From a virus: a DNA stretch of 27,040 nucleotides. Each line of letters starts with the position of its first letter. Position 1 is the stretch's first letter. The stretch covers positions 1 through 27,040 of IMG/VR virus record IMGVR_UViG_3300010392_000236; one strand, written 5' to 3'. The position numbers and the translations under genes are program-made. Of the stretch, positions 2,718-27,040 are shown piece by piece. The notes below the pieces were generated by a model. The model did no database searches and had not been told where the DNA came from. It saw only the letters and a list, made by a program, of their open reading frames with translations.

Positions 2718-3191
2718 ATACGACATTTATTTTAAGTCAGCAATGTCTTGGCATATGCCTGGTATTGATTGGTACTGGCTAAAAGCTCAGTGTTATCAAG
2801 AAAGCCGATTTAAACCGACAGCAGTCTCTCCAGTAGGGGCAGAAGGTGTTTGTCAGTTTATGCCGACAACTTGGGAAGATGTTCCCAACCTAATCAAGCA
2901 AGGGTCACATGTGTTTGATCCGCGAACCAATATAGAGGCCGCCGCTTGGTATAACAGTAGCTTTATCGCTTCTGGTATTCGCCTCGGCCAGTCATTGAAA
3001 GAATCAAATTGATGCTTGCTAGTTATAACGCAGGAGCAGGAAATATTGCCAAAGCACAAAAACTTTGCAATATGGCTGTTTTTTACGACCCGATCATCAA
3101 TTGTTTGCCGAAAGTCACTAAACATCACTCAAAGGAAACGATCAATTATGTTATCCATATTCAAAAATTTCGGGCTCAGCTCAATAATTAA
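2635..3191 (+). pseudogene. Lytic transglycosylase (SLT domain), split by a frameshift
   Basis: The ATG at 2635 follows AAGGAA (2623-2628). The product has a hydrophobic signal segment (residues 3-20), then the SLT family motifs: CYQESRF with catalytic Glu56, and GVCQFMPTTW. The first frame ends at 3010-3012 after an unfamiliar tail. The next frame continues with FWYSPRPVIERIKLMLASYN, including the family's ASYNAGAGN motif, and runs to 3191. Homology therefore crosses frames at about 2968-2973 (a -1 shift). No classical slippery heptamer lies there, so this looks like an indel mutation or a sequencing error rather than programmed frameshifting. If intact it would be the phage endolysin, cutting peptidoglycan beta-1,4 bonds. 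Without the second half the fold would be incomplete. Confidence 0.8.
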
Positions 3192-3657
3192 AACAGTTGT
3201 TGCTTTGGTTATATTTACGTTAATAGCCATTATCTTTTCGCTAAATGCGGCTAATGCGTCTTTATCAAAAGATAACAAGGTGTTAACTGCCAACGCACAG
3301 ATATTAAAAACCGCGAACAACGAAAGCGTAGCAACTATTGCCGAGCTAATGCATCAACTCAAACAAAACGAGCAGATAGCCTATAAGCGAAGCGTTATTG
3401 TTAATGATATAGCGAAAGACAATATTGAAGTTAAGCAAGTATTGGTTGAAGTGATAAAGGAAAGTGACGATGAAAACATTATTGAATGGTCTGATGCTCT
3501 TGTTCCTGATGATATTGTCAGCGTGCTCAAGCACCCCAGAAATAGTAATTCAGACGAAAACAGTAAAATTAACACCACCAAAAGTGTTAATGGAACAAAT
3601 TTACTTGCCAGTATTCCAAGGCAAAACAAATCAAGATCTAGTCAATTATATTTTTGA
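3148..3657 (+). CDS. Rz-like inner-membrane spanin subunit
   Basis: The ATG at 3148 has AAAGGAAA upstream (3130-3137). The protein has 169 residues: an N-terminal transmembrane segment (about residues 13-35), a long helical coiled-coil region, and the motif WSDALVPDDIVSVLKHP, which is characteristic of Rz/LysB i-spanins. It spans the periplasm and, with Rz1, disrupts the outer membrane in the last lysis step. Its start overlaps the end of the transglycosylase, and an out-of-frame Rz1 begins inside it. The tail after the KHP motif is low-complexity and is constrained by the overlapping Rz1 frame. Confidence 0.85.
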   Translation: MLSIFKNFGLSSIIKTVVALVIFTLIAIIFSLNAANASLSKDNKVLTANAQILKTANNESVATIAELMHQLKQNEQIAYKRSVIVNDIAKDNIEVKQVLVEVIKESDDENIIEWSDALVPDDIVSVLKHPRNSNSDENSKINTTKSVNGTNLLASIPRQNKSRSSQLYF

Positions 3658-3760
3658 TTTGCAGGCTTTTGGTAATCAATGCCTCAGCGATAGAAAACTG
3701 TTACGACAGTGGGAAAGTGAAACTCATGAGCAACGGAACACTAATGGAAAGCCCAAATAA
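3470..3760 (+). CDS. Rz1-like outer-membrane lipoprotein spanin
   Basis: The gene lies within and beyond Rz in another frame. The ATG at 3470 is chosen over the GTG at 3464 because AAAGGAAA (3456-3463) is spaced for it. A short hydrophobic signal ends in the lipobox LSAC (lipid-carrying Cys18), followed by the Pro-containing stretch TVKLTPPKVLMEQIYLPVF typical of Rz1. The remaining LVNYIFDLQAFGNQCLSDRK matches the usual C-terminal helix. At 96 residues it resembles the longer LysC/Rz1 proteins. It pairs with Rz to fuse the inner and outer membranes. The 3' end overlaps the next gene. Confidence 0.85.
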   Translation: MKTLLNGLMLLFLMILSACSSTPEIVIQTKTVKLTPPKVLMEQIYLPVFQGKTNQDLVNYIFDLQAFGNQCLSDRKLLRQWESETHEQRNTNGKPK

Positions 3761-4079: not shown

Positions 4080-5735
4080 ATGGCAATAAAAGGCGACACG
4101 ACAGGTAAGGTTACAATACCCCCTATAACATTCACAGGCGCATTTAGCCTGAGTGGGTCTTTTACTTACTCTACAGCTGCAGGTAATACATATGTGCTCT
4201 ATAGCTCCAACAGTCATTTTGTGGCTATTGCTAGCGGAGTATTTAGGGCTAAGGTTGCTGGAACATTTATAGATGGTTCTTGGTCCTTCACCGAAGATGA
4301 AATAATAAACTGGACGTTAGTTCGCGATGCTTCAAACAATGTGACATTAACTGCTAATGGTGTATCCTCTACCGTTAAAGTTGCGGCAGGCAATTTTACC
4401 CTTTCAGAAATTGGTAGAGCATTTACCAAGGTCATCAGAAGCACATTAGACATGTCTGGTGATGGAGTCAATAGTCGATCTTATGACACTGATGATTACA
4501 CTCTACCAACCGATACAATATTGGTAGACACATTAGATGGACAGAATGGAACATTAACTGGATATACTACTGGTGGTTTCGTTGTTGATACAGCTGGCAA
4601 TATAGTTATAACATCTATTGCGGATTATCAGTGCATCACTCATGATGAAAATGGTGAGGCCGTATTCCCTATAGCTGGTACTTATTCAGGTAGTCCCGAC
4701 ACAATAGTATTAAGCATGAATGGTGGTGTTGATTTTGTTGTTTTAGATGCATCGCCTACTGGTGATGGGTTTTCAGCTAATGTTAGAGTTAAAGGTCAAG
4801 TTGATATTATTGTCGCCTTTGGAAATGATAAATCTATCAATGCTGAAGTTATTTATATAACAGCCGCTTGGACAATGGGCAGACCTGGACAATCTAATAC
4901 ATCGAGTAGAGGGGGGGAATTACAGGTGCCCTCATTTAGTCGCAATAAACCATTACCTATTATGTGGAAAGATGGTGTGTTTCAACCTCTGACAGACCCT
5001 ACAAACGGCTATGATAACAACTCAGCAGGTAGTACAGATGCTAGGTTGGCTAGTTTATTTGCAAATGCAGGAGTACCTATTTGTATTGGTAATGTCGCTC
5101 AGGGAGGTCAAGGATATAGTCAATGGCAAAAAACAGGAAGTTTATACCCTAGATTACAAGCTTTTGCTGATGCTGTTGGTGGAACACTTTCAGCGTGTGC
5201 AGGCATTGGTGGTGAAAACGATGAAGGTGATGGTCAAGCTACAATCGAGGCTAATTTAAACGCATTTATTAATGATGTTAAAGCTGACTTTGGGTGTGGG
5301 TATAACCTAACCAAATATCCAACAATTAGTGGAGATACCTTATTAGCTTTCAATGCTGTATTGGCTTCTAATCCCAATGCTTTACCTGGGGGTGATTTAT
5401 CTGTGATGGATATATCTTCAGCTACCGATCCACGAAACGATGACCTTCATATCATATTGACTCCTGATTTAAACCAAGCTGCACAGATTCAGTATGATGA
5501 TATTAACACATCAACCGCGAATTTAACGGCACCAGGTATACCTGATGGTACATATCATACAAGGTTAGTTGAAAGTGGAACTGATAGAATCTTACATGAT
5601 GGAGATTTAGTGTGGTCTAATAACAATACTAGTGTTTTAATTGATGCACCTAAAAGCACTACAGTATCAGGCCATGTAATAGATAACCTAGAGGCTAGTA
5701 TTGATGGCAGCGCATTAGAAGCGATAACAGCATGA
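4080..5735 (+). CDS. SGNH-hydrolase-like esterase with beta-rich N-terminal domain
   Basis: The protein has 551 residues. The first ~270 are Thr/Ser/Gly-rich beta structure, resembling lectin-like or tail-spike adaptor domains. From about 265 the SGNH/sialate-esterase blocks appear: GQSN with nucleophile Ser272, GNVAQGGQGYSQW with a block II Gly, GGEND with Asn380 (block III), and DDLH with Asp454 and His457 as the final dyad. Such enzymes remove O-acetyl groups from sugars, and in phages they often act on host surface polysaccharide. There is no signal peptide, which fits a virion component. The gene sits between lysis and cos. Its stop overlaps the next start by ATGA, suggesting co-translation with the following tail-related genes. 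No clear ribosome site precedes the ATG. The substrate is unknown. Confidence 0.65.
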   Translation: MAIKGDTTGKVTIPPITFTGAFSLSGSFTYSTAAGNTYVLYSSNSHFVAIASGVFRAKVAGTFIDGSWSFTEDEIINWTLVRDASNNVTLTANGVSSTVKVAAGNFTLSEIGRAFTKVIRSTLDMSGDGVNSRSYDTDDYTLPTDTILVDTLDGQNGTLTGYTTGGFVVDTAGNIVITSIADYQCITHDENGEAVFPIAGTYSGSPDTIVLSMNGGVDFVVLDASPTGDGFSANVRVKGQVDIIVAFGNDKSINAEVIYITAAWTMGRPGQSNTSSRGGELQVPSFSRNKPLPIMWKDGVFQPLTDPTNGYDNNSAGSTDARLASLFANAGVPICIGNVAQGGQGYSQWQKTGSLYPRLQAFADAVGGTLSACAGIGGENDEGDGQATIEANLNAFINDVKADFGCGYNLTKYPTISGDTLLAFNAVLASNPNALPGGDLSVMDISSATDPRNDDLHIILTPDLNQAAQIQYDDINTSTANLTAPGIPDGTYHTRLVESGTDRILHDGDLVWSNNNTSVLIDAPKSTTVSGHVIDNLEASIDGSALEAITA

Positions 5736-6541
5736 GTTTAAATGCATGGGGTAAAATTAATAACTGGACTGGCGTGGCGGTAGTTAATGAATTATCAACA
5801 ACAATAGCCCAACAAACTAATCAAGCAGCTAAGCTACCAGCAAGCCAAGTACATAATCTATCAGTAAGCGTTGCAAGACAGATTAATAAGGCATTAACGT
5901 TATCATTAGCATCAACCAGCATATTGGATGCTGTTGTAGCACAGCAAACCAATAAAGCATTAGTTAGTGAACTGTTTCAGCAACACAATTTATCTTTAGC
6001 AAAAGCACAGCAAACAAACCAAGCAACAAGCGTTGAATTAAATCAAGCACATTTACTTGGTTTAGCAATAGCTCAACAAGTTAATAAAGCATTAAGCGGT
6101 GATATAGAGCAATTTCATCAATTAGATGCATCAGTTGCTAAGCAGGAAAATAAAGCAACTAAACCCGCTATTGGTACAGTTCACACCCTTGGTGTAGTTA
6201 CCGCGCAGCAAGTTAATAAAGCACTAAAAATAACCATTGGCCAAGTTCATGGTTTACTTTCAACAGTGGCAGAACAGCATAACAAAGCTTTGTTGCTTGA
6301 AGTTATCCAAGGCTTAAAGCATGAATTAGCCATTGCTCAACAGCAAAACCAAGGCGAGAACAACTTTGTCATTCAAGTGCATGAATTAGAGCCAGCGATA
6401 GCAGAGCAACATAACCAGGCATTACCTGGTTACTTGGTAAGTAGTTTAATCGAAGATATTGACCCACAAAAGTCAGTATTAATCAGTGTTACCCCAGAGA
6501 ATGTTTTGGTGAGTAACACACCAACATCAGTATTACATTAG
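5732..6541 (+). CDS. Protein of ten 22-residue repeats, unknown function
   Basis: Of 269 residues, about 17-240 are ten copies of a unit with an exact 22-residue period. The conserved core is A-x-Q-x-N-[KQ]-A, with its Ala at 26, 48, 70 and so on to 224, preceded by H-x-L about nine residues earlier and followed by a hydrophobic-x-Q-V. No insertions or deletions break the period. Twenty-two equals two hendecads, which suits a long helix or right-handed coiled coil, though stacked helical hairpins are possible. The N-terminus MSLNAWGKINNWTGV and the final 40 residues are non-repetitive. The ATGA overlap with the SGNH gene and the position before gpZ/cos suggest a structural or tail-associated role. 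I recognise no named family. Confidence 0.7.
   Translation: MSLNAWGKINNWTGVAVVNELSTTIAQQTNQAAKLPASQVHNLSVSVARQINKALTLSLASTSILDAVVAQQTNKALVSELFQQHNLSLAKAQQTNQATSVELNQAHLLGLAIAQQVNKALSGDIEQFHQLDASVAKQENKATKPAIGTVHTLGVVTAQQVNKALKITIGQVHGLLSTVAEQHNKALLLEVIQGLKHELAIAQQQNQGENNFVIQVHELEPAIAEQHNQALPGYLVSSLIEDIDPQKSVLISVTPENVLVSNTPTSVLH
5780..6430 (+). repeat. Divergent 66-bp coding tandem repeat, ten copies
   Basis: The repeat encodes the 22-residue unit. Nucleotide identity between copies is modest while the protein pattern and period are kept, so the array is old and under selection at protein level. Confidence 0.75.
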
Positions 6542-6550
6542 GAATTTATC

Positions 6551-6955
6551 ATGGGCGTTTTATATTCTCATCCGGACGTTTTAGATAATGGCCCAGCAGA
6601 GCTATTAAAAACAAATCAAGTTGCAGTGTTAAAAGCTTACGCATTAGCAGATTCACATGCGACTGTAACAGCAGGTGCCAATATTGTACTTACTGAAGCG
6701 GTTACAGGTGGCGACATGTCGCTGTCGAATCATGAAACACATGATCGTAAGTGGCAATGTAATGGCAAAGCTGGTGTGATATCACTTATTGATACAGAAA
6801 ACACAGATGATTTGCATATTGCTTATATAGATACGCTTACCTCAAGAGTGCTTTATGTGACTGATGAAATAACCGATCAAGAAATAACGGCAGGTAACCC
6901 TGTTGATGTTCCTGCAGGTGAATACCGAAGCTTGCAACCAACAGCGGTAGCGTAA
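6551..6955 (+). CDS. Unknown 134-residue probable virion-associated protein
   Basis: I do not recognise a family. The protein begins MGVLYSHPDVLDNGPAELLK, has a helical, Ala-rich first third and a beta-rich remainder with many Thr/Asp, and has no signal peptide or membrane helix. The ending VDVPAGEYRSLQPTAVA is typical in style of small phage structural subunits. It follows the 22-residue-repeat gene by 9 bp, and its TAA overlaps the next ATG by one base. The unbroken run to gpZ suggests a role in the virion, perhaps with the esterase and repeat protein. Confidence 0.65.
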   Translation: MGVLYSHPDVLDNGPAELLKTNQVAVLKAYALADSHATVTAGANIVLTEAVTGGDMSLSNHETHDRKWQCNGKAGVISLIDTENTDDLHIAYIDTLTSRVLYVTDEITDQEITAGNPVDVPAGEYRSLQPTAVA

Positions 6956-7302
6956 TGAGTGGTGTAGAGTTATTTTATAACGGCCATGACAACATTATTC
7001 AGTGCCAATACATCTATGACGGTGCGCCGTATGAGTTTATGAATCAAGGCGCGACTGATTTACATATTTCATTAAAAAACAAAGTAGATAGCACTGAATA
7101 TACATTAACATCAATCAATCACCCTGACGTTGTGAGCTATGACAACAATGGTTACATTTACTTGTCACTTGGTAAGGTAGGTATTCCAGCAGGAGCGTAC
7201 GATGTCACAGGTATTGTTAAAGGCGTAGCGGGAGCATCTAAAGTGATCATCCAAAAGAAGCAACGTAAATCTAAGCTAGTGATAGAAGGTGTAGACATCT
7301 AA
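6955..7302 (+). CDS. Unknown 115-residue beta-rich phage protein
   Basis: This is a beta-rich protein with alternating strands, for example YNGHDNIIQCQYIYDGAPYE and DNNGYIYLSLGK, then IPAGAYDVTGIVKGV and a basic stretch, QKKQRKSKLVIEG. It has the look of a small immunoglobulin-like or baseplate-type domain, but I cannot name a family. It overlaps both neighbours by one base (TAATG at each junction), so expression is tightly coupled to the unknown protein upstream and the gpZ-like tail protein downstream. A structural role is likely and unproven. Confidence 0.65.
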   Translation: MSGVELFYNGHDNIIQCQYIYDGAPYEFMNQGATDLHISLKNKVDSTEYTLTSINHPDVVSYDNNGYIYLSLGKVGIPAGAYDVTGIVKGVAGASKVIIQKKQRKSKLVIEGVDI

Positions 7303-7940
7303 TGAGTAATGCTTCTGTTCAATTAGACATCAACATAAACCAAGTTGCTGCTCAAATTGATAAGAACATTCAAGGCTATGATCAAGTTATCACTCGCGCT
7401 GCTAACATGGGTATCAACAGAACCATTAGAAGCGTAGAGTCCAAAGGTGTAAAAGCGATAGCCGATGAAACAGGCTATAAACAAAAACTGGTACGTGAAA
7501 ACATACGAGTAACACGTTCAAAAACCAAAACATTAACAGCAATAATAGAAGCGCCGCGCAAAGCTAAAGCTATCAACCTGATTGAGTTTGTTCGTAGGAA
7601 TATGCAGAACCCTGCATTCTTTAGACGTAGATATAAATCTAATAGCCGTAAGCGTGGCTATAGTAAAGGTCAGTTCAAGTACAAAGGTGTCATCGCTTCA
7701 GCTTGGAACAATGAGAAAGTGTACAAAGGCACCTTCATTGGTCGTGATGGCAAAGGTCAACTGAAAGTGTTTAAGCGCACAGCTGGATACAGAAGCAAGC
7801 CAACACTGGTATCAGGACCATCAATACCAGCCACGTTCTCACAAGAGGTGATGATTAAATACTTTGAACGTGAAGCCAAGCACACATTCCCTAAAGAGTT
7901 TAATAGAGCAGCATCATACCTATTGTCGCAGCAGAAGTAA
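7302..7940 (+). CDS. Minor tail protein, lambda gpZ-like
   Basis: This 212-residue basic protein has MGINRTIRSVESKGVKAI followed by ADETGYKQKLVRENIRV, the pattern of prophage minor tail protein Z (lambda gpZ, 192 residues). gpZ acts at the head-proximal end of the tail and is needed for correct tail completion and DNA positioning. The middle is very basic (FFRRRYKSNSRKRGY). In lambda Z lies between FII and U, but here it lies upstream of cos, while FII-like and U-like genes are adjacent at 15337-16036. It has therefore been moved, yet it is still the last gene before the terminator at 7951. Confidence 0.75.
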   Translation: MSNASVQLDININQVAAQIDKNIQGYDQVITRAANMGINRTIRSVESKGVKAIADETGYKQKLVRENIRVTRSKTKTLTAIIEAPRKAKAINLIEFVRRNMQNPAFFRRRYKSNSRKRGYSKGQFKYKGVIASAWNNEKVYKGTFIGRDGKGQLKVFKRTAGYRSKPTLVSGPSIPATFSQEVMIKYFEREAKHTFPKEFNRAASYLLSQQK

Positions 7941-7950
7941 TCATACTGTA

Positions 7951-7985
7951 AATCTAAATGAGAATCATTCTCATCTAGATTTTTT
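7951..7985 (+). terminator. Intrinsic terminator after the gpZ-like gene
   Basis: AATCTA-A-ATGAGAAT and ATTCTCAT-C-TAGATT form a nearly perfect stem (7951-7980) with an effectively tiny loop, followed by T to 7985. It ends the lysis/tail-accessory block just before cos. Confidence 0.75.
7957..7975. promoter_or_regulatory. Fur-box-like palindrome
   Basis: AATGAGAATCATTCTCATC fits the Vibrio-type Fur consensus AATGANAATNATTNTCATT at every fixed base except the last. It lies within the terminator stem, so the match could be a by-product of the hairpin, and no promoter is evident beside it. Confidence 0.3.
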
Positions 7986-8100
7986 GGGTCCTTTTGGCCT
8001 AAAAATTCCCATTGAGGGGGCGCGGCAGCGCAGAGTTTCAGAATTTACGAAAATTTTTTCATTTGGGGTTTCCGGTTCCGGTTAGCCTTTTTAAACATGA
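7986..8100 (+). other. Putative cos packaging site
   Basis: This is non-coding DNA between a terminator and the small terminase gene, the position of lambda cos. GGGGGCGCGGCAGCGCAGAG (8016-8035) is GC-rich with GCGC-GGCA-GCGC dyad symmetry, like cosN. ATTTACGAAAATTTT (8043-8057) closely matches ATTTATGAAAATTTT downstream of lambda cosN. GGTTTCCGGTTCCG (8067-8080) resembles the cosB R-sequence containing GTTTCCGTTC. The cut positions cannot be assigned. Confidence 0.7.
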
Positions 8101-8111
8101 GCTTTTGATTT

Positions 8112-8621
8112 ATGGCAACTCAACGCGAAGTCGCTGAGCACTTATTTTTAGAGGCCTCTGGCAGACAAGTAAGAAATTGGCACAAGCAACCAGGCTTTCC
8201 AGTTCCAAGCGGAAAAGGGGGATATGATTTAGTTGCTGTGCGGAAATGGTATATCGCATTTTTAAAAAGCCGCCATTTAAAAAATGGTGCGGCACCTGCT
8301 GATGATATTGATTCAGAAATGGAGCAAGCAAAATTAGATATTGCTAAAGAAAACCTCAGGACAAAGAAAATAAAAAATGATCGTGATGAAGGTTTAAACA
8401 TTCCTGTTGAAATAGCTCGTCATTTATTAGCGGGTGTTATGTCTCGCGTTAACGCTAATTTCAAAGCACTTACTCCAATAATTAAAAGAAACAATCCAGA
8501 TGTTAGCCACCGAGTTATTGAAAGCGTCGAAATTGAAGTAATTAAAGTTCAAAACGAGACATCAAAAATTGGGCAACACTTGGATGAAATAATTGATGAG
8601 CTTGTCAGTACACCAGATTAG
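8112..8621 (+). CDS. Terminase small subunit (gpNu1-like)
   Basis: This 169-residue protein begins MATQREVAEHLFLEASGRQV followed by RNWHKQPGFPVP, a winged-helix DNA-binding domain of the Nu1 type (a helix-turn-helix choosing cosB sites). A GGYDLVAVRKWYIAFLK segment and a charged helical oligomerisation and large-subunit-binding region (about 70-169) follow. It recognises the cos site just upstream and, with the large subunit, starts packaging. No good ribosome site precedes 8112. A three-codon frame, ATG AGC TTT TGA (8097-8108), ends 3 bp before the start and could couple initiation. The 3' end overlaps the large terminase start. Confidence 0.85.
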   Translation: MATQREVAEHLFLEASGRQVRNWHKQPGFPVPSGKGGYDLVAVRKWYIAFLKSRHLKNGAAPADDIDSEMEQAKLDIAKENLRTKKIKNDRDEGLNIPVEIARHLLAGVMSRVNANFKALTPIIKRNNPDVSHRVIESVEIEVIKVQNETSKIGQHLDEIIDELVSTPD

Positions 8622-10560
8622 AGCAGTAAAAAAAGCATTTAAAAGTGCCTTAAGTATTCTGTTCAGACCTGAGCCAATGACAGCGGTAGAGCATGCAGAT
8701 TCAAACTTCTACATGTCACCAGAATCCTCATACATTGAAGGTGACTGGACAACTGTTGGTTACCAAGTAGCTATTTTAAATAGTATTGGCAATGATGAAG
8801 TATTAGAGGTTGCATGGCCCAAAGCAGCCAGAACAGGTTTTACTAAAATTGTCTGTGCTGCCATTAATTATTTCATTGATCATAAGCAACGAAATATAGG
8901 TGTTTGGCAACCGAACGACACCATGCGCGATAGGTTTTCTAAAAAACATATCGACACCATGATCCGTGACGTTAAACCACTAAGAAAATTATTCCCTTGG
9001 TGGGGGAAAAAGCACAAGAACAACACCAAAGAAAATAAAAGCTTTTTAAACTTTTGTGAACTGTTTTTACTTGGCGCAGAGTCAGCAAACAACTTTCGTG
9101 AATTATCTCTTGATGTAGCGATAACTGATGAAAGTGGTTCGTACAAAATGGACGTTGGCGATGAAGGTGACGCCCTTGGCCTTATTGAAAAACGTTTAGA
9201 AGGTTCAGCGTTCAGTAAGTTCGTTAATGGTTCATCACCAACTATTAAAGGCCAGTGCTTAATAACCAAACGCGCTGATCATTGCGAACAGCATTTTTAC
9301 CGTTATATTCCTTGTCCTCGCTGTGGTGGCTTTCAAATTTTAGAGTTTGGTGGCAAAGACAGCAAACATGGTTTGAAGTGGGATAGAAGCTTAACCGGCT
9401 CAGCTAGAAACAAATCAGCACATTATGTTTGTAAACATTGCCATGACAAATTTCAGTACGTTGAATATTTAGAAGCTGACAAGCTTGGTTATTATCAAAG
9501 CACTCAAGGCTTATTAACATTTGACGGTATAGACTTTTTTGACGCAGAAACCAGACAGCCAGTAGAAACACCAGAAACAATTGCTTGGATGGGGATATGG
9601 ACCATCTATTCTCACTTTGCGCCCTGGTGGAAAATAGTTCGTGATTGGTATCAAGATAAAGGCACACCGGCAGGCTTAAAAAAATTCATTAATACTACGC
9701 TTGGTCAAGCGTTTGAAGAAGAAACAGGTGAGAAAACCACGGCAGAAAGCTTAATGCTTCGTCGTGAAATGTACAAAGCACAAGTACCAAAACATGCGTA
9801 TTACTTAACCTGTGGTTTAGATATGCAAGACACTTGGGTGCCAGGTGTTGTTTATGGTTGGGGCCTCGATGGCGAACGCTTCAAAATAGATAAATTTGAA
9901 GTGCGTGGCAACCCGAAAGAGCCAGAGTTTTGGGATGAATTAGAGATAGCATGTAATCGTGAATACACCCACGAAAGTGGCGTAAAGTTAAAAATATCAC
10001 GATTTAACTTTGATACTGGTGGTCACTTTACCGACCAGGTACATGCTTTTTCAAGACGGATTGGGATTACAAGGATGCTGCCTTGCAAAGGGGCTAACAC
10101 TTACGGAAACCCCATTGCCACTATGCCGAAAAAACCTGATCGGTCACGTAAAACCTATTTAGTTACTGTTGGCACTGATACAGCAAAAGAAAGCATTTTT
10201 AGTAGTTTTAAAATTCACCCTAAAGCTTCAGACGAAGCAATACCCGGGTGTTTTCATTTACCGCTCAACGACCAAATTTGTAATGAGGAAATGCTCAACG
10301 AGCTTTGCTCTGAAAGTAAGCGTAGAGAATACATCAAAGGTCGCGCAGTTTATCGCTGGTTGCCGTTATATGACGGTATTCGAAATGAAGAACTGGATTG
10401 TACCGTTTATGCTGAAGCTGCATTTTATTGCTCTGTGCAATATTTTGGTTTGAACATGCAGCAGCTCGCAGCGTCATTTAAAAATATCGATTCACCGGCT
10501 AAAGCCACCATCAAAAAGAAAAAGAGAAAACGCGGTACCGTTACCGGAGGAATTAACTAG
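8596..10560 (+). CDS. Terminase large subunit (gpA family)
   Basis: The protein has about 654 residues from the ATG at 8596 (a TTG at 8593 is also possible). It shows the gpA-type features: a deviant Walker A in AWPKAARTGFTKI (about 73-85), a DVAITDESGS Walker B-like strand (about 173), and two CxxC pairs, CPRCGG (about 240) and CKHCHDKF (about 281). A C-terminal nuclease domain includes RFNFDTGGHFTDQ and GLDMQD. It is the ATP-driven packaging motor and the nuclease that nicks cos. It overlaps the small subunit by 26 bp and ends in a Lys-rich tail that contacts the next gene by TAGTG overlap. Length is close to lambda gpA (641). Confidence 0.95.
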   Translation: MSLSVHQIRAVKKAFKSALSILFRPEPMTAVEHADSNFYMSPESSYIEGDWTTVGYQVAILNSIGNDEVLEVAWPKAARTGFTKIVCAAINYFIDHKQRNIGVWQPNDTMRDRFSKKHIDTMIRDVKPLRKLFPWWGKKHKNNTKENKSFLNFCELFLLGAESANNFRELSLDVAITDESGSYKMDVGDEGDALGLIEKRLEGSAFSKFVNGSSPTIKGQCLITKRADHCEQHFYRYIPCPRCGGFQILEFGGKDSKHGLKWDRSLTGSARNKSAHYVCKHCHDKFQYVEYLEADKLGYYQSTQGLLTFDGIDFFDAETRQPVETPETIAWMGIWTIYSHFAPWWKIVRDWYQDKGTPAGLKKFINTTLGQAFEEETGEKTTAESLMLRREMYKAQVPKHAYYLTCGLDMQDTWVPGVVYGWGLDGERFKIDKFEVRGNPKEPEFWDELEIACNREYTHESGVKLKISRFNFDTGGHFTDQVHAFSRRIGITRMLPCKGANTYGNPIATMPKKPDRSRKTYLVTVGTDTAKESIFSSFKIHPKASDEAIPGCFHLPLNDQICNEEMLNELCSESKRREYIKGRAVYRWLPLYDGIRNEELDCTVYAEAAFYCSVQYFGLNMQQLAASFKNIDSPAKATIKKKKRKRGTVTGGIN

Positions 10561-10787
10561 TGGCCACTAAAGAACAATTACAAACTGACATTGCTGACCT
10601 TCGTGTTGCTCAAAAAAAGTTAAGAGCAGGAGAACGTGTTGGCGAAGTCATGTATCAAGGCCGGAAAACAAGCTTTGTTGAGGTCAGCTTGCCACAGTTA
10701 GCAGAAGAAGAAGCTCGTCTTAATCGACAACTTGCTCGTAAAACTAATAAACGTTATTCACTCATTAGTACAGGAAAAGGCTTTTAA
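10560..10787 (+). CDS. Head-tail joining protein (gpW-like)
   Basis: This 75-residue protein starts with GTG at 10560, sharing the G of the terminase stop. It has two helical stretches around GEVMYQGRKTSFVEVSLPQL, the compact helix-strand-helix plan of lambda gpW (68 residues). It sits between terminase and portal exactly as W does in lambda. gpW plugs the connector after packaging and forms the site for tail attachment. GGAGG (10547-10551) serves as its ribosome site. The stop overlaps the portal start by one base. Confidence 0.8.
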   Translation: MATKEQLQTDIADLRVAQKKLRAGERVGEVMYQGRKTSFVEVSLPQLAEEEARLNRQLARKTNKRYSLISTGKGF

Positions 10788-12283
10788 TGGTCACAAAAAT
10801 CAAAAAGCCTCGTATCAATGTGCATGGCGGCATGACAACAGCACAATTTCATAATGCATACGAAGGGGCAAGTCGCTCTTATCGTATGCGTAATAAAGGC
10901 ATGTCAAACGGTGGTCCAAACCAAGACATCAAGCAATCACTTGCTACATTAAGAAAGCGATCGCGCCATGCTATTCAAAATCACCCTTTGGCTGTTAGTG
11001 CAATTGAAAACTATACCAGCCAATTAATCGGCAATGGTATTACCGCTAAATGGCCTAACAAAGAAGTTCAAAAGCTCTGGGAAAAATGGATAAAAGAGTG
11101 TGATGCCGATGGCATTGACAACTTCTATGGATTACAGCTTTTAGCGGCGCGTAGTCAATTTGAGTCAGGCGAAGTACTTGCTCGTCGTAGAGCTCGTTTG
11201 CCACAAGATGGTTTATCCGTTCCATTGCAAATACAGCTATTAGAGAGCGATCACTTAGACGAAAACTATAACGTTCAATTTGATAACACCAACATCACCA
11301 TGGGGATTGAGTTTAACGGTATAGGCCAGCGCAGCAACTATCATTTATGGCGAAATCATCCATCAGAAAGTGGCACGCTCACCGCAAACAGTAGAGTGAG
11401 AGTGCCAGCGAATGATGTTATTCATTTATTCAGACGTTTACGCCCAGGGCAACAACGAGGTGTACCAGAATTAACAGCCGTACTTGCCCGTTTATATGAC
11501 ATAGACGAAATGCAAGACAGCACGTTGATGAAACAAAAATCAGCGGCCTTGTTTGGCTGGATTGTTACCAAAAAATCACCAGAAATCATGGCTGGCCAAG
11601 AGTCTAACGAAGTAAACCGTGATTTAGTGGGTGAAAACAATGGTGAAGAAACCGAAGCAGGCACACCAATTACTGAAATTCGCCCTGGCGGCATTCATTA
11701 CATGGAAGAAGATGAAGACGTTACATTTTCATCACCTGATGGCATTGGTCAAAACTATATTCCATGGCTTAAATCAGAATTTCGTACTATTGCTAAAGGT
11801 TTACCGGGTTGTACGTATGAACAACTTACGGGTGATTTAACCGATGTTAATTACTCAAGTATTCGCGCAGGACTTGTTGAAATTCGTCGCAGAATAGAAC
11901 AACTGCAATACATGATGATGATACACAGATTTTGTCATCCTATTGCCCAATGGTTTTTAGATCATGCGGTAATTTCAGGCGCAGCAAAAATTGCCAACTA
12001 CTGGTCAAACCGTGATGAACACCTACCTAAATGGTTTACCCCTAAATGGGATTGGGTTGACCCACTTAAAGATGTGATGGCCGACTTAATTGAAGTACGT
12101 GCAGGTTACGCAACCCGAGCTGACAAAGTAGCTGAGCGAAACGGTGACATCACCAAAAATGATGAACAATTATTGCTAGAGCAAGCCAGTGAGCTAGTGC
12201 TTGATTCAAACCCTAAAGTCACAACCAAAGCAGGTCAGTTACAAGTAGATGATCTCGCTAATCAATTAATTACACAAGAGTAA
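10787..12283 (+). CDS. Portal protein (lambda gpB family)
   Basis: This 498-residue protein has the portal core beginning SRSYRMRNKG and LRKRSRHAIQNHPLAVSAI, then NYTSQLIGNGI and IQLLESDHLDE. It continues with DVIHLFRRLRPGQQRGVPEL and GCTYEQLTGDLTDVNYSSI, the last a very typical lambda-type portal motif. It forms the dodecameric DNA channel at the head vertex and nucleates capsid assembly. In lambda the N-terminus is clipped by the protease encoded next. Size is close to lambda gpB (533). Confidence 0.95.
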   Translation: MVTKIKKPRINVHGGMTTAQFHNAYEGASRSYRMRNKGMSNGGPNQDIKQSLATLRKRSRHAIQNHPLAVSAIENYTSQLIGNGITAKWPNKEVQKLWEKWIKECDADGIDNFYGLQLLAARSQFESGEVLARRRARLPQDGLSVPLQIQLLESDHLDENYNVQFDNTNITMGIEFNGIGQRSNYHLWRNHPSESGTLTANSRVRVPANDVIHLFRRLRPGQQRGVPELTAVLARLYDIDEMQDSTLMKQKSAALFGWIVTKKSPEIMAGQESNEVNRDLVGENNGEETEAGTPITEIRPGGIHYMEEDEDVTFSSPDGIGQNYIPWLKSEFRTIAKGLPGCTYEQLTGDLTDVNYSSIRAGLVEIRRRIEQLQYMMMIHRFCHPIAQWFLDHAVISGAAKIANYWSNRDEHLPKWFTPKWDWVDPLKDVMADLIEVRAGYATRADKVAERNGDITKNDEQLLLEQASELVLDSNPKVTTKAGQLQVDDLANQLITQE

Positions 12284-12293
12284 CGGAGCACTT

Positions 12294-13340
12294 ATGCCTA
12301 ATCCGGTAAAAATGACGCGTCCTGAAAACGCAAAAGCACCCTTTGAAATACTAAATATGGACAATAGCAGTGAAGCAGCTCGCATTAATATTTACGACAT
12401 CATTGGTCAAACGTGGTGGGATGATGGCGTTACAGGAAAAGCTTTTGCTAATGAGGTGTCCAGCCTTGGTAAAGAGCGTGATTTGGTTGTACATATCAAT
12501 TCACTTGGTGGTGACGTTGTTGATGGAACGCTAATATATAACACCTTGTTAAATCATGAAGGCAAAATCACCTTTATCATTGATGGCTGGGCGGCAAGTA
12601 TGGCATCAATTATCCCAATGGTACCAGGTTGCAAAGTGAAAATGTCACCGCTTGGTATGATGATGATTCATAAGCCTCTCAATAATTGTCGAGGTAACGC
12701 TGATGCTATGCGTAAAAATGCTGAAACTTTAGATAAGGTCGAGGCTGCTTTAACTACTGCTTACACGAACAAAACAAAAATAGAAAAAGAAGCTATTGCT
12801 GAAATGTTAACGGTTGAAACATGGATGACAGCAGAAGAAGCATTAGATCAAGGTTTTATTGATGAAATAATCGAGTCTACGGGTACGGCTCCTTCCAATT
12901 GTTTGGATCCTGATATTGCTAGCCAATTTGTAAATGTTCCTAAAGCTGTGCTTGAAATTGTAGCTAGCGATGAAACAGATGATGATAACGAATCAGAGCA
13001 AAACAATGATGAAGACTTAGATGTTGAAGATGAAGAATCAAACGACTTATCATCAGATGATGACAATAACGTTTCTGAAGATGAGCCCGATGCCACCGAA
13101 GTTGAAAACCACCGCGTATTAGACATCATGAATCAATGCCAAGCATTAGGTCTTGAACATATGGCTCAGGATCTAATCAAAAACAAAACATCCATTGAAG
13201 TTGCTGGTACTATTTTATCCAACGTCAAAGCTGGTATTGATAACAACAATCAAACCCATGGTCAACATAAGCAAAACTTAGAAACAACCATGTCAAATGA
13301 TGACATTTGGAATGCTGCAAAACAAATTAACAAACGATAA
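12294..13340 (+). CDS. Head maturation protease, ClpP-like, with acidic scaffold-like tail
   Basis: This 348-residue protein has an N-terminal ClpP/S14 fold: HINSLGGDVVDGTLIYN, nucleophile Ser102 in GWAASMAS, and His126 in MMMIHKP. The WMTAEEALDQGFIDEI segment completes the domain. From about residue 225 comes a very acidic linker rich in Asp, Glu and Ser, then a helical C-terminus. In lambda, gene C encodes the protease and nested Nu3 the scaffold; here the C-terminal third probably provides the scaffold function. I could not find a convincing internal ribosome site for a separate scaffold start. AACGGAG precedes the ATG. It lies between portal and decoration genes as expected. Confidence 0.9.
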   Translation: MPNPVKMTRPENAKAPFEILNMDNSSEAARINIYDIIGQTWWDDGVTGKAFANEVSSLGKERDLVVHINSLGGDVVDGTLIYNTLLNHEGKITFIIDGWAASMASIIPMVPGCKVKMSPLGMMMIHKPLNNCRGNADAMRKNAETLDKVEAALTTAYTNKTKIEKEAIAEMLTVETWMTAEEALDQGFIDEIIESTGTAPSNCLDPDIASQFVNVPKAVLEIVASDETDDDNESEQNNDEDLDVEDEESNDLSSDDDNNVSEDEPDATEVENHRVLDIMNQCQALGLEHMAQDLIKNKTSIEVAGTILSNVKAGIDNNNQTHGQHKQNLETTMSNDDIWNAAKQINKR

Positions 13341-24200: not shown

Positions 24201-27040
24201 GTGAAATATGCCACTAACTTACAAGGCATTAACCACGTTGATGGCCATGCGGGCAATAGCTATATTGGCATAGCAATAAACAAGAGAAGCAATACAAAAT
24301 CTGCATCGGCAAGTGATTATTTATGGTTTAGTGCCTTTGGTAGCTCTTCGCTTGATCACAACGACAACCCACCATTAATATCAAACCAATTACTTGATGA
24401 TAATGAGCTATACATATCAGGGTTAGGTGCTGGAAAATATCGCGCTTCTGTTGCTATTGTTACCGATGAATTATCTAGCGCGTACAGTGATGTTTTAGTA
24501 GAAATAATCACAGACAGCTTTTCTGAATTAGCGACCAATTATGAAGATGAACGTATAGCCAATACTGTTGCCATTGAGGCCGCAAAAGATTATGCAGACA
24601 GTAAGTTCATTGACAGCGTGCAATACGGCACAGATATCACCGAATTACAGTCACAAATTGATGGCAATGTCACCACTTGGTTCCAAGCTGGTGTGCCTAC
24701 GTTAGCCAATGCTCCGGCTAATGAATGGGTTACTACCGCATTAAAAAATCAACACTTAAGTGATATTTATTATGATGACAACACTGGCTTTGCCTATCGC
24801 TTTAAATTAGTTAATACAACCTATAGTTGGGCAAAAATTGATGACTCGGACATCACTAAAGCATTATCTGATGCGGCAAAAGCACAAGACACCGCTGACG
24901 GTAAACGTCGCGTTTTTGTGGTGCAGCCAATCCCTCCTTATGATGTAGGTGATTTATGGGATACAGGCAATGGTTTTAGTCGCTGTATAATCGCAAAACT
25001 AGTAAATGGTGTTTACGCTGCTGGCGATTGGAAAGCAGCTGCTGATATCACAGATTATGATGACACCCGGGTAAGCAACAGCGAAATATCAGTAGGCTCA
25101 TTGGGGGCTATTCCGTCAGATACCACGCTATTTCCGCGTTATAAATCATTAAGTGCCATTCACGGCACTGGTGCCATCACAACGTCGCAGTTTGTTGCTG
25201 CATTAACCAGTGCTGGTTGCTTTAATGGTAATCACAATGTTTTTAAGACAAGCTGGAGTTATGCTGGCCACGGTTACATTAGCGATACTAACTGTGGTGT
25301 TATTGATTTAGCGGGTGCAACCATTGAGGTAATTGGCACTAGCAGCACCTATATGATTCGTGTTACTTCAGCGCCAAGTGCCTCTGGCCACGGTGGTTTA
25401 TCTCATACTACGTGGGAATACAGATATCACGGTAGTGCCTACAACCCTGGTTGGCGCATGGTGCTTAACTCGGGTAATTTTCAAAACTCAATTACCCAGG
25501 CGTTTATTAATAGCTTGAATGTTGATGCTGCTACGCTTGGTGGTTACGGTGAATCATCATTCACTCGTAATAGAGGTAGTATTGGTGATGACAACGTATT
25601 AGTTGGTTCAACTGCTAACTGGCCAAACAACCCTTTAGGTGGCAGCTACAGAACTGATTACGCAGGTGCTTCTGGCTTGGTCATGATGTCTAATGATGTT
25701 GGCGGTAGTACATCATCAGTTGCACTGGAGTTTTCATATAACGGCAAAGTTTTTTTCCACTCTAACACTGATAGTAATAAGTGGAATAGCTATCAAATTT
25801 ATACTGAAGAAACCCTTACTAAAGCAGTAATAGACGCGCTAAACGTTGATGCATCTACTTTAGATGATATTGATTCAACAGGTTTTATGCGTACAGCTGC
25901 CGACGGTAACGGCTACTGGGGACTAACTCCACAAGGTAATAGTGCTGGGTATGTTAGGTCACCCCAAAATGGAATAATCCCTTTTGATTCCTCTAAGCAG
26001 GCATATCTTGGAACGACTTCATGGAGATGGAAACAAATTCATGGCCAAGCAATATATGAGGCAGGAATATCATTAAGTAATCGTTACTTAGGCTTGTCTG
26101 CTCTTAATTACAACGACTCAGCAACGTATGCAGCTGCTTGGCTCGCGGTTGAGGAATTTAAAAAATGGGTTACTTCGGGTAGTGCTGATAATAGCGCATA
26201 CGATACAGTGACCGACTCTATAGCGACTGCTTTTATTAATAGTATTATCGGTCAATTTAATATTGTCGTAGCAAACAAGGCTAACGTAGGCTATTTAAGT
26301 GCCAACGCTATCAGCGTTGGTTTAAATGATAAAGCGGTCAACGAAAACCCTTACTTCCAGGCTGAGGGTGCCGCTGCTGCGGGTAATTCAGCTAACGGAT
26401 GGTCGGTTAACCCGTTTACTAAGTATGGTAAACAAATTACTGATGGAATAGTGGCTGATACCTGTGCGGAAGTTACTAATAATAACTTATCTGGAGGTTT
26501 CTGGTCTGACGATATACATCTAGAAGACGGTAAAGTATATAAAATATCTTTATGGATTCGCAATACCTCTGCAACGGTTAGAACTCAATACTTAGCCTGT
26601 CATTTCAAGGACGCTAACGGGACTAGGATTACTTCTGGTGGCACTGGTTGGTCATTAGGAACTTATTGTTATTGGGGGCGAGTCAACCAAGCTATTCCTG
26701 GCACAGATTGGGTTAAATACGAAGTAACTTTAGCTAATGTTGTTGAGAGCGGAGATTCCTCTAGTTTTAAAACGCCTGCTGGTACAGCAACCGTAAGTCT
26801 TGGGATTTTGGCTAACTATAGCGCTAGTGTTGGAACAGGTGAAGCTACAATACAAATTCAAGATTACCGTATTGAAGAGATGACCACATCAACCACAATT
26901 GTGGATGGAACCATCACAGCCGACAAGATAGCAGCCAATGCGATTACTGCAGATAAAGTTGCCGCCAATGCGATTACCGCCAACAAAATAGCAACCAATG
27001 CGATTACTGCTATCAAAATAGCGGCTAATGCGATTACTGC
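21288..27040 (+). CDS. Giant tail-tip/receptor-binding protein (partial, at least 1,917 residues)
   Basis: The frame is open from the ATG at 21288 to the right edge. The N-terminal ~530 residues look like a tail hub, including DLRLVIMLDFATPVYFSSH and KYIYLKIYQGDLFEIA. A Gly-rich beta part follows (about 690-790). Two copies of a module with WVKYA and an ASDYxWF ending lie at about 905-1020. Then comes DGKRRVFVVQPIPPYDVGDL (about 1204), a segment familiar from siphophage tail tip proteins. Fibre-like repeats with NVDAATL/NVDASTL and a late carbohydrate-module-like region (about 1685-1870) follow. At about 1873 a 10-residue tandem repeat begins. It takes the place of lambda L, K, I and J. It likely acts in receptor recognition and tip assembly. 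Confidence 0.85.
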   Translation, partial: MRQNSQEFNIFNQSSSKDLRLVIMLDFATPVYFSSHADIPNLPANTITDTVKKTSSISQSINPDVARAEIGKLTFSLLDLNGAVTQAFRNANAQNQGLNGLTVKLYRGGLGMDFADFRLEQTQQIDKEVSYNNSVYSVTCADIQRKLRSDIFDLAKTQLTRDFLANETTIEVSTTEGFEFCDHVASFSDQPTGKYIYLKIYQGDLFEIARASGKTATTFTGIERGLFGTNDISHSIPTDSTDDNGIVVEEYVYIELPIPVMAYAMLTGDIIGGGKLPTRWHLGIDPSSVNTDAFINIGEGLFDENDFSKGFITYFSGLTKTDGKTFIEKEICLLMGAFMPVLSDGKLSLKLMSSVLSGSDAIAELNEDNIVSHSKITYDHSKIHNQIEINWAYLQFVGQDPQFYRKHTLLDSNSINKHGLGSVYKLSFKGLHSSRHTITHIHNLFDALRDRYAGPPVLLTATLLPSMNDLEQGDIVRVKLPQQRDFMGFDRIERAFEVQKVTVDQITGKVTVSLFGSSDKASVITESDATTDWALQDSWYTSNGSSMSSLLNISNGTLQQDGTLPGTVGTKTTQAYWISIIKNSHTSRKLYHFDGDLLIPNGVTLTLWDNVGLLVKGHLQVDGEIRVKKTPDEYLTSGYLGVTISQGSFHYDRDNNGNYVNKEKSGHTLGYHPANSPDMNSNTSVPALNITQDQYGLHGVPGDMCGTSGKDGKLVNDGSTYKDGGAGGVGGGSLLIVARGLAFGVSGFVDTSGEDGSIGDLIPEYDYYSGSGAGGAPGALVVLIDGIDSSFPVLTNSIKAKFGLSPLVGDALGSGNGPWHSTKYVGKSQTREDLGINATHIQYVPQYRQPFPTQGELLNTLSDVSGLIYSQLTDNINQGLLSWDAVEPSFNAKYRVKLFDDNGGHVWVKYASDSSGSNMSDSATAKTHIGFALNQSSATKSLVASDYQWFVIDSSFGYEVTGLQGEQRFIWVKYATNLQGINHVDGHAGNSYIGIAINKRSNTKSASASDYLWFSAFGSSSLDHNDNPPLISNQLLDDNELYISGLGAGKYRASVAIVTDELSSAYSDVLVEIITDSFSELATNYEDERIANTVAIEAAKDYADSKFIDSVQYGTDITELQSQIDGNVTTWFQAGVPTLANAPANEWVTTALKNQHLSDIYYDDNTGFAYRFKLVNTTYSWAKIDDSDITKALSDAAKAQDTADGKRRVFVVQPIPPYDVGDLWDTGNGFSRCIIAKLVNGVYAAGDWKAAADITDYDDTRVSNSEISVGSLGAIPSDTTLFPRYKSLSAIHGTGAITTSQFVAALTSAGCFNGNHNVFKTSWSYAGHGYISDTNCGVIDLAGATIEVIGTSSTYMIRVTSAPSASGHGGLSHTTWEYRYHGSAYNPGWRMVLNSGNFQNSITQAFINSLNVDAATLGGYGESSFTRNRGSIGDDNVLVGSTANWPNNPLGGSYRTDYAGASGLVMMSNDVGGSTSSVALEFSYNGKVFFHSNTDSNKWNSYQIYTEETLTKAVIDALNVDASTLDDIDSTGFMRTAADGNGYWGLTPQGNSAGYVRSPQNGIIPFDSSKQAYLGTTSWRWKQIHGQAIYEAGISLSNRYLGLSALNYNDSATYAAAWLAVEEFKKWVTSGSADNSAYDTVTDSIATAFINSIIGQFNIVVANKANVGYLSANAISVGLNDKAVNENPYFQAEGAAAAGNSANGWSVNPFTKYGKQITDGIVADTCAEVTNNNLSGGFWSDDIHLEDGKVYKISLWIRNTSATVRTQYLACHFKDANGTRITSGGTGWSLGTYCYWGRVNQAIPGTDWVKYEVTLANVVESGDSSSFKTPAGTATVSLGILANYSASVGTGEATIQIQDYRIEEMTTSTTIVDGTITADKIAANAITADKVAANAITANKIATNAITAIKIAANAIT
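26904..27040 (+). repeat. 30-bp coding tandem repeat at the window edge
   Basis: About 4.5 copies encode a unit like [A/D][N/G][A/T]IT-A-x-K-[I/V]-A. Starts are at 26904, 26934, 26964, 26994 and 27024. This is a common stalk motif in phage tail fibres. The array continues beyond the window, so copy number is unknown. Confidence 0.85.

Follow-up and report, generated by a model that had tools for sequence, protein, structure and literature searches.

A 22-residue repeat family of phages, encoded beside a small fibre-related protein, as candidate shaft of an accessory adhesin fibre

Results

An array of 22-residue units and its partner

The repeat protein described here consists almost entirely of an array of 22-residue units, and the gene directly behind it encodes a small protein, the partner, whose homologues accompany such arrays at most loci of the same family. 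We put the probability at roughly two in three that dimers of this partner and the array together build an accessory adhesin fibre, in which the array is the shaft or rope and is beta-structured. The fibre would be of a known kind; for the repeat family, its size, its linkage to the partner and its recombination junction, we found no description in searchable sources. Both genes lie in a 27,040-nucleotide stretch of viral DNA (IMG/VR record IMGVR_UViG_3300010392_000236, positions 1 to 27,040), which we call the window (Table 1).

Table 1. Features of the repeat-protein module and its surroundings (positions in the window)
Feature	Position	Strand	Remarks
ORF of 551 aa, SASA-like carbohydrate esterase domain	4080..5735	+	Pfam SASA E 7.4e-5
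Repeat protein, 269 aa	5732..6541	+	ATG start; proposed shaft or rope
Ten 22-residue units	5780..6439	+	residues 17-236; xHxLxxxxAxQxNKAxxxxIxQ type
Start of DNA homology to related phage L003/L018, inside array	6043	.	blastn
C-terminal tail of repeat protein	6440..6538	+	nearly unchanged in L003; weak 9-residue tandem
Partner protein, 134 aa	6551..6955	+	probable distant relative of GP4 fibre-I gp80 (PF23140)
115-aa protein	6955..7302	+	third-gene place of module (LSH1 gp36, P24 AZU97338)
Minor tail protein Z / Neck1-like tail completion protein	7302..7940	+	Pfam Minor_tail_Z 1.8e-16; phrog_27 1.4e-19

The 22-residue period is kept at the protein level

A preliminary description of this DNA had claimed ten repeats with a perfect 22-residue period on diverged DNA, and both statements hold. 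Every unit has exactly 22 residues, there are no indels between units, and the mean pairwise identity of the units is 48% for DNA and 38% for protein. The periodicity analysis that had been proposed as a check gives a clear result, with BLOSUM self-similarity at z = 12.1, 13.3 and 10.3 for lags 22, 44 and 66; across 2000 shuffles and all lags, the top self-similarity was 0.07, compared to 0.90 observed. As the DNA has diverged with the period intact, and Tandem Repeats Finder reports no DNA array at the repeat gene, we conclude that selection on the protein keeps the period. The region is also present in two longer IMG/VR contigs at 99.97% identity and is thus no assembly artefact.

The same description spoke of an exact 11/22 periodicity, which stands for 22 residues. 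The 11-residue period by itself is marginal in the window protein (z = 2.6), and we dropped it as a hendecad signal because it is too weak. Scored against the family profile in each of the 22 possible registers, the window array does best in the correct one and second best with a shift by 11, which indicates that an 11-residue pseudo-repeat is real at the level of the family profile.

The array belongs to a family found in many phages

We looked for relatives using a DNA pattern of three consecutive QxHxL motifs at 66-nt spacing. The pattern has one match in the window, with 0 expected in shuffles; as it was built on the window protein, this match taken alone is circular. Viral contigs contain at least 120 matches, at odds with the preliminary view of an uncommon design. 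Low-complexity loci were taken out by hand, after which 594 distinct units from 78 loci (among the matches listed) yielded the consensus QxHxLx[AV]x[DG][AVI]x[HQS]x[HQSNP]x[AVL][DG]xxx[LIV]x, which is rich in D, G and P. Unit length is variable, as one array (L008) is made of 23-residue units, and some family proteins are, like that of the window, almost array only.

Three observations place the window array in this family: it has consecutive units with Q1, H3 and L5, it agrees with the family at the remaining positions, and it has the partner gene. Masking positions 1, 3 and 5 leaves the correct register in first place among the 22, and only 10 of 20000 column permutations reach the masked profile score. 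By tblastn with the low-complexity filter off, the array matches family loci down to 4e-12. Within units, positions 12 and 14 covary (H/H 129 vs 44 expected, Q/Q 67 vs 22, Q/N 24 vs 8), counts that overstate significance to the extent that units within one array are not independent. The units of the window are of the Q/N type.

Neither the array, searched against Pfam, NCBIfam, PHROGs and PDB, nor the family profile, searched against PDB, gave a match, which agrees with the earlier statement that the protein fits no named family. When the array was searched against the proteins of annotated phages, only one weak match came back, probably because BLAST low-complexity masking hides the repeats. 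Scanning genome contigs at the protein level with the window protein found nothing, and the QxHxL pattern in the same kind of contigs gave mostly low-complexity false positives and few real arrays. A TerL-based search for relatives recovered the same two phage groups and distant terminases only. On sequence evidence, the family is large, unnamed and present in many diverse phages.

Individual members vary widely. The longest array that we saw, of ~40 units in a protein of ~1090 aa, comes from a Gammaproteobacteria MAG (L165, JALVPS010000223.1) and has the partner downstream. A 1103-aa protein with ~20 units of 22-24 residues (L008:4185-7496) ends, by eye, in a T7 gp11-type tail tubular or adaptor-like domain and is preceded by two PF23140 proteins. 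In Phage DSL-LC04 (WJZ48131.1, L259:1150-2280), a gene that adjoins an adaptor gene encodes 22-residue VTGVQxxGxVGxVTV repeats (lag 22, z = 12) that lack the Q and H and may represent another branch of the family. One phage repeat protein (MW805364.1 7065-8591, L006:4365-5891) is labelled ‘ribonuclease E’, apparently a misannotation that stems from its repetitive composition. In many arrays each unit contains an HxH (AHAHTADN), exchanged pairwise for QxQ or QxN. In the needle of T4 gp37, stacked HxH motifs bind metal, and by analogy those of the family arrays could do so as well.

A small partner accompanies the array

The partner gene (A8 family) begins 10 nt downstream of the repeat gene on the same strand. 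Homologues occur at 66 of 85 family loci (among the matches listed), on the same strand in all and within 400 nt in 44; at 17 of the 19 loci that lack one, less than 1 kb of sequence is available on one side of the array gene. The partner is found at 0 of 111 non-family loci of the genome collection, a weak control since these are not phage structural loci. Partner type also follows repeat type: nearest neighbours agree in 55 of 64 cases, where chance predicts 25.6 and none of 2000 shuffles gave more than 39. This covariation could come from contact or from co-inheritance of adjacent genes.

If partner and array are linked, then a partner found by its own profile should have an array beside it. 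The partner profile led to a gene in the cultured Alteromonas phage P24, and its neighbour, AZU97340, carries a diverged 22-residue array, an independent check of the linkage that came out as predicted. An exception is Roseobacter phage CRP-6, in which the partner lies beside a tail-fibre gene with no detectable 22-residue period.

The partner resembles gp80, the small protein of fibre I in the Ralstonia podophage GP4, at a distance. PF23140, the family of GP4 gp80, is matched by 5 of 34 partner sequences (best E 0.0018), and the window partner itself has no match to it. Relatives of the partner reach at most about 20 bits, below the curated cut-off of 27 bits. Adjacent paralogues do pass it, one in an Octadecabacter phage (4e-38) and two copies at L008 (1e-21, 6e-19); the one from the Octadecabacter phage also hits the chain of GP4 in PDB 8JOU (2.7e-6). 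The partner thus appears to be distantly related to gp80 yet outside PF23140, the link running through relatives that score below the cut-off. In fibre I of GP4, an elongated rope protein reportedly connects dimers of gp80. The window array has no match among PDB chains, and a search of PDB for the GP4 rope with two divergent arrays gave nothing. One partner sequence also matches a 110-aa chain of the neck map of Shigella phage Sf14 (0.0026), a similarity that is only suggestive, as it is not significant by subgroup profile (E = 0.013). The two small whisker proteins in the Sf14 neck, gp30 and gp31 (PMC11821841), are comparable in being small neck proteins but come without a repeat protein.

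The module resembles those of phages LSH1 and P24

Alishewanella phage LSH1 has an ‘extra structural module’ of three adjacent genes, gp34-gp35-gp36, which follow the lysis module and encode proteins found in virions (PMC13243795, June 2026). According to the same study, gp34 combines an adhesin/depolymerase-like N-terminus with a C-terminus that is beta-helix-like, poorly predicted and left unexplained by the authors, who suspect a repetitive motif; gp35 is a dimer and GP4-fibril-like, and gp36 is Ig-like (PMC13243795). The module is accessory, being present in only half of the related genomes, and the authors recognised no 22-residue repeat or wider family (PMC13243795). Window positions 4080-7302 follow lysis-type genes with the same gene order of adhesin-like part, partner and third gene. 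LSH1 gp34 is one chain that includes the adhesin-like part, whereas in the window this part is a separate ORF. From the published gene order and content, we predict that the window module corresponds to that of LSH1, and by the same analogy 22-residue repeats may explain the C-terminal domain of gp34. In Slicko01, a myophage named in the LSH1 paper, we found neither the repeat nor the partner.

In P24, the closest cultured relative of the window phage by terminase, the genes AZU97340-AZU97339-AZU97338 encode an array protein, the partner and a third small protein in the order of the window. AZU97340 matches the window array by blastp at 3e-8 and has, by eye, a lectin-like N-terminus. P24 differs in its irregular units and in the place of its module, which is at another site of the genome and not flanked by lysis genes and terminase. 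In Octadecabacter Antarctic DB virus 2, gp11 (‘ribonuclease E’) carries 22-residue repeats in the register of the window, together with a partner, gp9 (1.1e-44), and the PF23140 paralogue gp8 (4e-38); this phage differs in its S/P-type units, its N-terminal domain and its podovirus-like gene order. Anabaena phage A-1(L) gp80-82 form a bead-chain neck fibre with a carbohydrate-binding module at the tip and trimers as beads (PMC10966104); its trimer beads and lack of a rope set it apart from the fibre that we propose for the window.

The third gene of the window keeps its place in the order in L003 and is matched by position in P24. The 115-aa protein has no detectable similarity to P24 AZU97338 and no matches in other family loci; it is a possible attachment protein. 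The module as a whole sits between lysis-type genes and the Z/Neck1 gene, which places it beside connector genes. Upstream of the module (window 3016-3760), the ORFs 3016-3657 and 3464-3760 overlap and the second has a lipobox-like LSACSS; by eye, they look like an Rz/Rz1 spanin pair.

The upstream part, a probable adhesin, appears to be exchanged at the array

The ORF upstream of the repeat gene scores 22.9 bits against Pfam SASA, just under the cut-off of 24.8. Its stop and the start of the repeat gene overlap in an ATGA. We see no slippery heptamer by eye near the ATGA and rejected a -1 frameshift that would fuse the two; translational coupling through the ATGA is our preferred reading. The ORF is the probable adhesin or enzyme payload of the fibre, a role assigned by inference.

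Relative to the related phage L003/L018, the window aligns by blastn at 75.9% over 6043-12445, downstream genes included, and nothing upstream of 6043 aligns. L003 has an array that is 66% identical to that of the window and one unit shorter, fused to a different N-terminal domain. As the homology starts inside the array, the array appears to be the junction at which the upstream adhesin part was exchanged. N-terminal parts are variable across the family, with the lectin-like Laminin_G_3 in 8 of 57.

At the other end of the protein, the last 38 residues are nearly the same in the window and L003. A C-terminal tandem of ~9 residues (p < 0.01) is found in 25 of 71 family members vs 7 of 84 controls, and is possibly a separate docking motif; the window tail ends in a weak one, SVLISVTPE/NVLVSNTPT/SVLH (p = 0.03). 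The tail as a whole is a probable anchor or cap. These ~9-residue tandems are often R- or P-rich, e.g. in L064, L069, L050 and L127.

The array is predicted to be beta-structured

Given a family alignment of 43 rows, AlphaFold2 builds a model that is all beta (pLDDT 66.6, pTM 0.65), with a pLDDT of about 80-86 at residues 41-100. We count this model as only moderate evidence for a beta array because of its pLDDT of ~67 and because AlphaFold may hallucinate beta helices on such regions, as the LSH1 authors caution (PMC13243795). With three sequences from near relatives, AlphaFold2 builds helices at pLDDT 34, a model discarded as uninformative. In the repeat family, hydrophobicity has a component of 0.11 at 98 degrees vs 0.85 at 131 degrees, and homologous units carry turn or helix-breaking residues, namely D/G at positions 9 and 17 as well as P at positions 14 and 19. 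A hendecad coiled coil should keep its helical periodicity in homologues and be free of helix breakers; the family shows neither feature. Taking model and profile together, the array is probably beta-structured and not a coiled coil.

Monomer structure prediction, which the preliminary description had also proposed, thus speaks against a helix and does not lead to a known fold. Foldseek finds no solved structure significantly similar to the array model (best E 0.21, probability 0.14), and among viral models only weak, uncharacterised matches. There is no significant structure or profile match that would place the array with Curli CsgA or known beta-solenoids. NosD matches the family consensus at 0.0049, under its own cut-off, and we rejected the matches to CsgA, NosD and apolipoprotein as weak or composition-driven.

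Discussion

We infer virion location, direct binding, polarity, stoichiometry and the role of each part from genes alone. The fibre would sit on the virion exterior, probably at the neck between head and tail or on the upper part of the tail. Its N-terminal side would bear a carbohydrate-active adhesin or enzyme, here the coupled SASA-like ORF and in relatives a lectin or other domain within the same chain. In the shaft, each 22-residue unit would form short beta strands with Q, H/N and aliphatic residues facing inward, and the shaft would assemble with the 134-aa partner, whose probable distant relative gp80 is dimeric in GP4, as is the GP4-fibril-like gp35 in LSH1. The C-terminal tail and its 9-residue tandem, perhaps along with the 115-aa protein, would hold the fibre to the virion. 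With the array conserved, phages could swap the upstream adhesin by recombination within the repeats. That the repeat protein is a phage structural protein, as first assumed, is probably right.

The main competitor, a real possibility against which we lean, is an autonomous beta-solenoid shaft with one coil per 22 residues, in which the partner only caps or anchors one end. The single-chain AlphaFold2 model is all-beta, as a solenoid would be, and its best matches among PDB structures, none significant, are with solenoids, for example CsgA and left-handed beta-helix enzymes. A solenoid would, however, have to stack Q, H and N inward in every coil, and it has no significant fold match; the covariation of positions 12 and 14, together with its link to partner type, points instead to contacts all along the array.

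A more specific version of the shaft built with partner dimers is a molecular rope, and we offer it tentatively, by analogy. Each unit, with its two pseudo-equivalent 11-residue half-sites, would be the site for one partner dimer, so that the repeat count would set the bead count and the length of an adhesin-tipped fibre; tailed phages of very different kinds would have this rope family in common and exchange adhesins at the rope. If unit count does set bead count, the array would be a natural length ruler.

Whichever way the shaft is built, it might belong to the head rather than to the neck or tail. Head genes (portal, major head protein, protease, head morphogenesis), together with connector genes, make up most of the surroundings of family members, as would suit a capsid fibre like Hoc or the RcGTA head spikes. 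We consider this unlikely, since connector genes occur in the same module, the next recognisable gene of the window encodes the Z/Neck1-like protein, and the GP4-like relatives of the partner are neck or tail fibres (PMC13243795). Still less probable is a flexible, largely disordered spacer between adhesin and virion that has no defined fold. Low AlphaFold confidence without homologues, here and in LSH1 (PMC13243795), would fit such a spacer, but the 22-residue length is free of indels despite 48% DNA identity, positions 12 and 14 covary strongly (H/H and Q/Q each about threefold over expectation), and one register is common to very diverse phages. The long right-handed coiled coil or membrane-surface helix of the preliminary description, an impression that the 98-degree component of the window protein (0.68, with the 131-degree component stronger) accounts for and that the alignment-poor AlphaFold2 model echoes at an uninformative pLDDT, is very improbable in either form in view of the turn residues, the absent helical moment (0.11) and the all-beta model of the family.

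The family is common in environmental phages and absent from Pfam, NCBIfam and PHROGs, its members being labelled ‘hypothetical’ or ‘ribonuclease E’. Recognition of the repeat and its near-constant partner provides a simple means of finding accessory adhesin fibres; such fibres may affect where and to what a phage binds. It also offers a testable answer for the C-terminal domain of LSH1 gp34 and points to P24 as a cultured model.

A shorter repeat lies at the far end of the window. At 26919-27038, 30-bp tandem repeats encode about four IAANAITADK-type units of 10 residues, close to the end of a J-like tail protein whose ORF runs from 21288 to beyond the window end.
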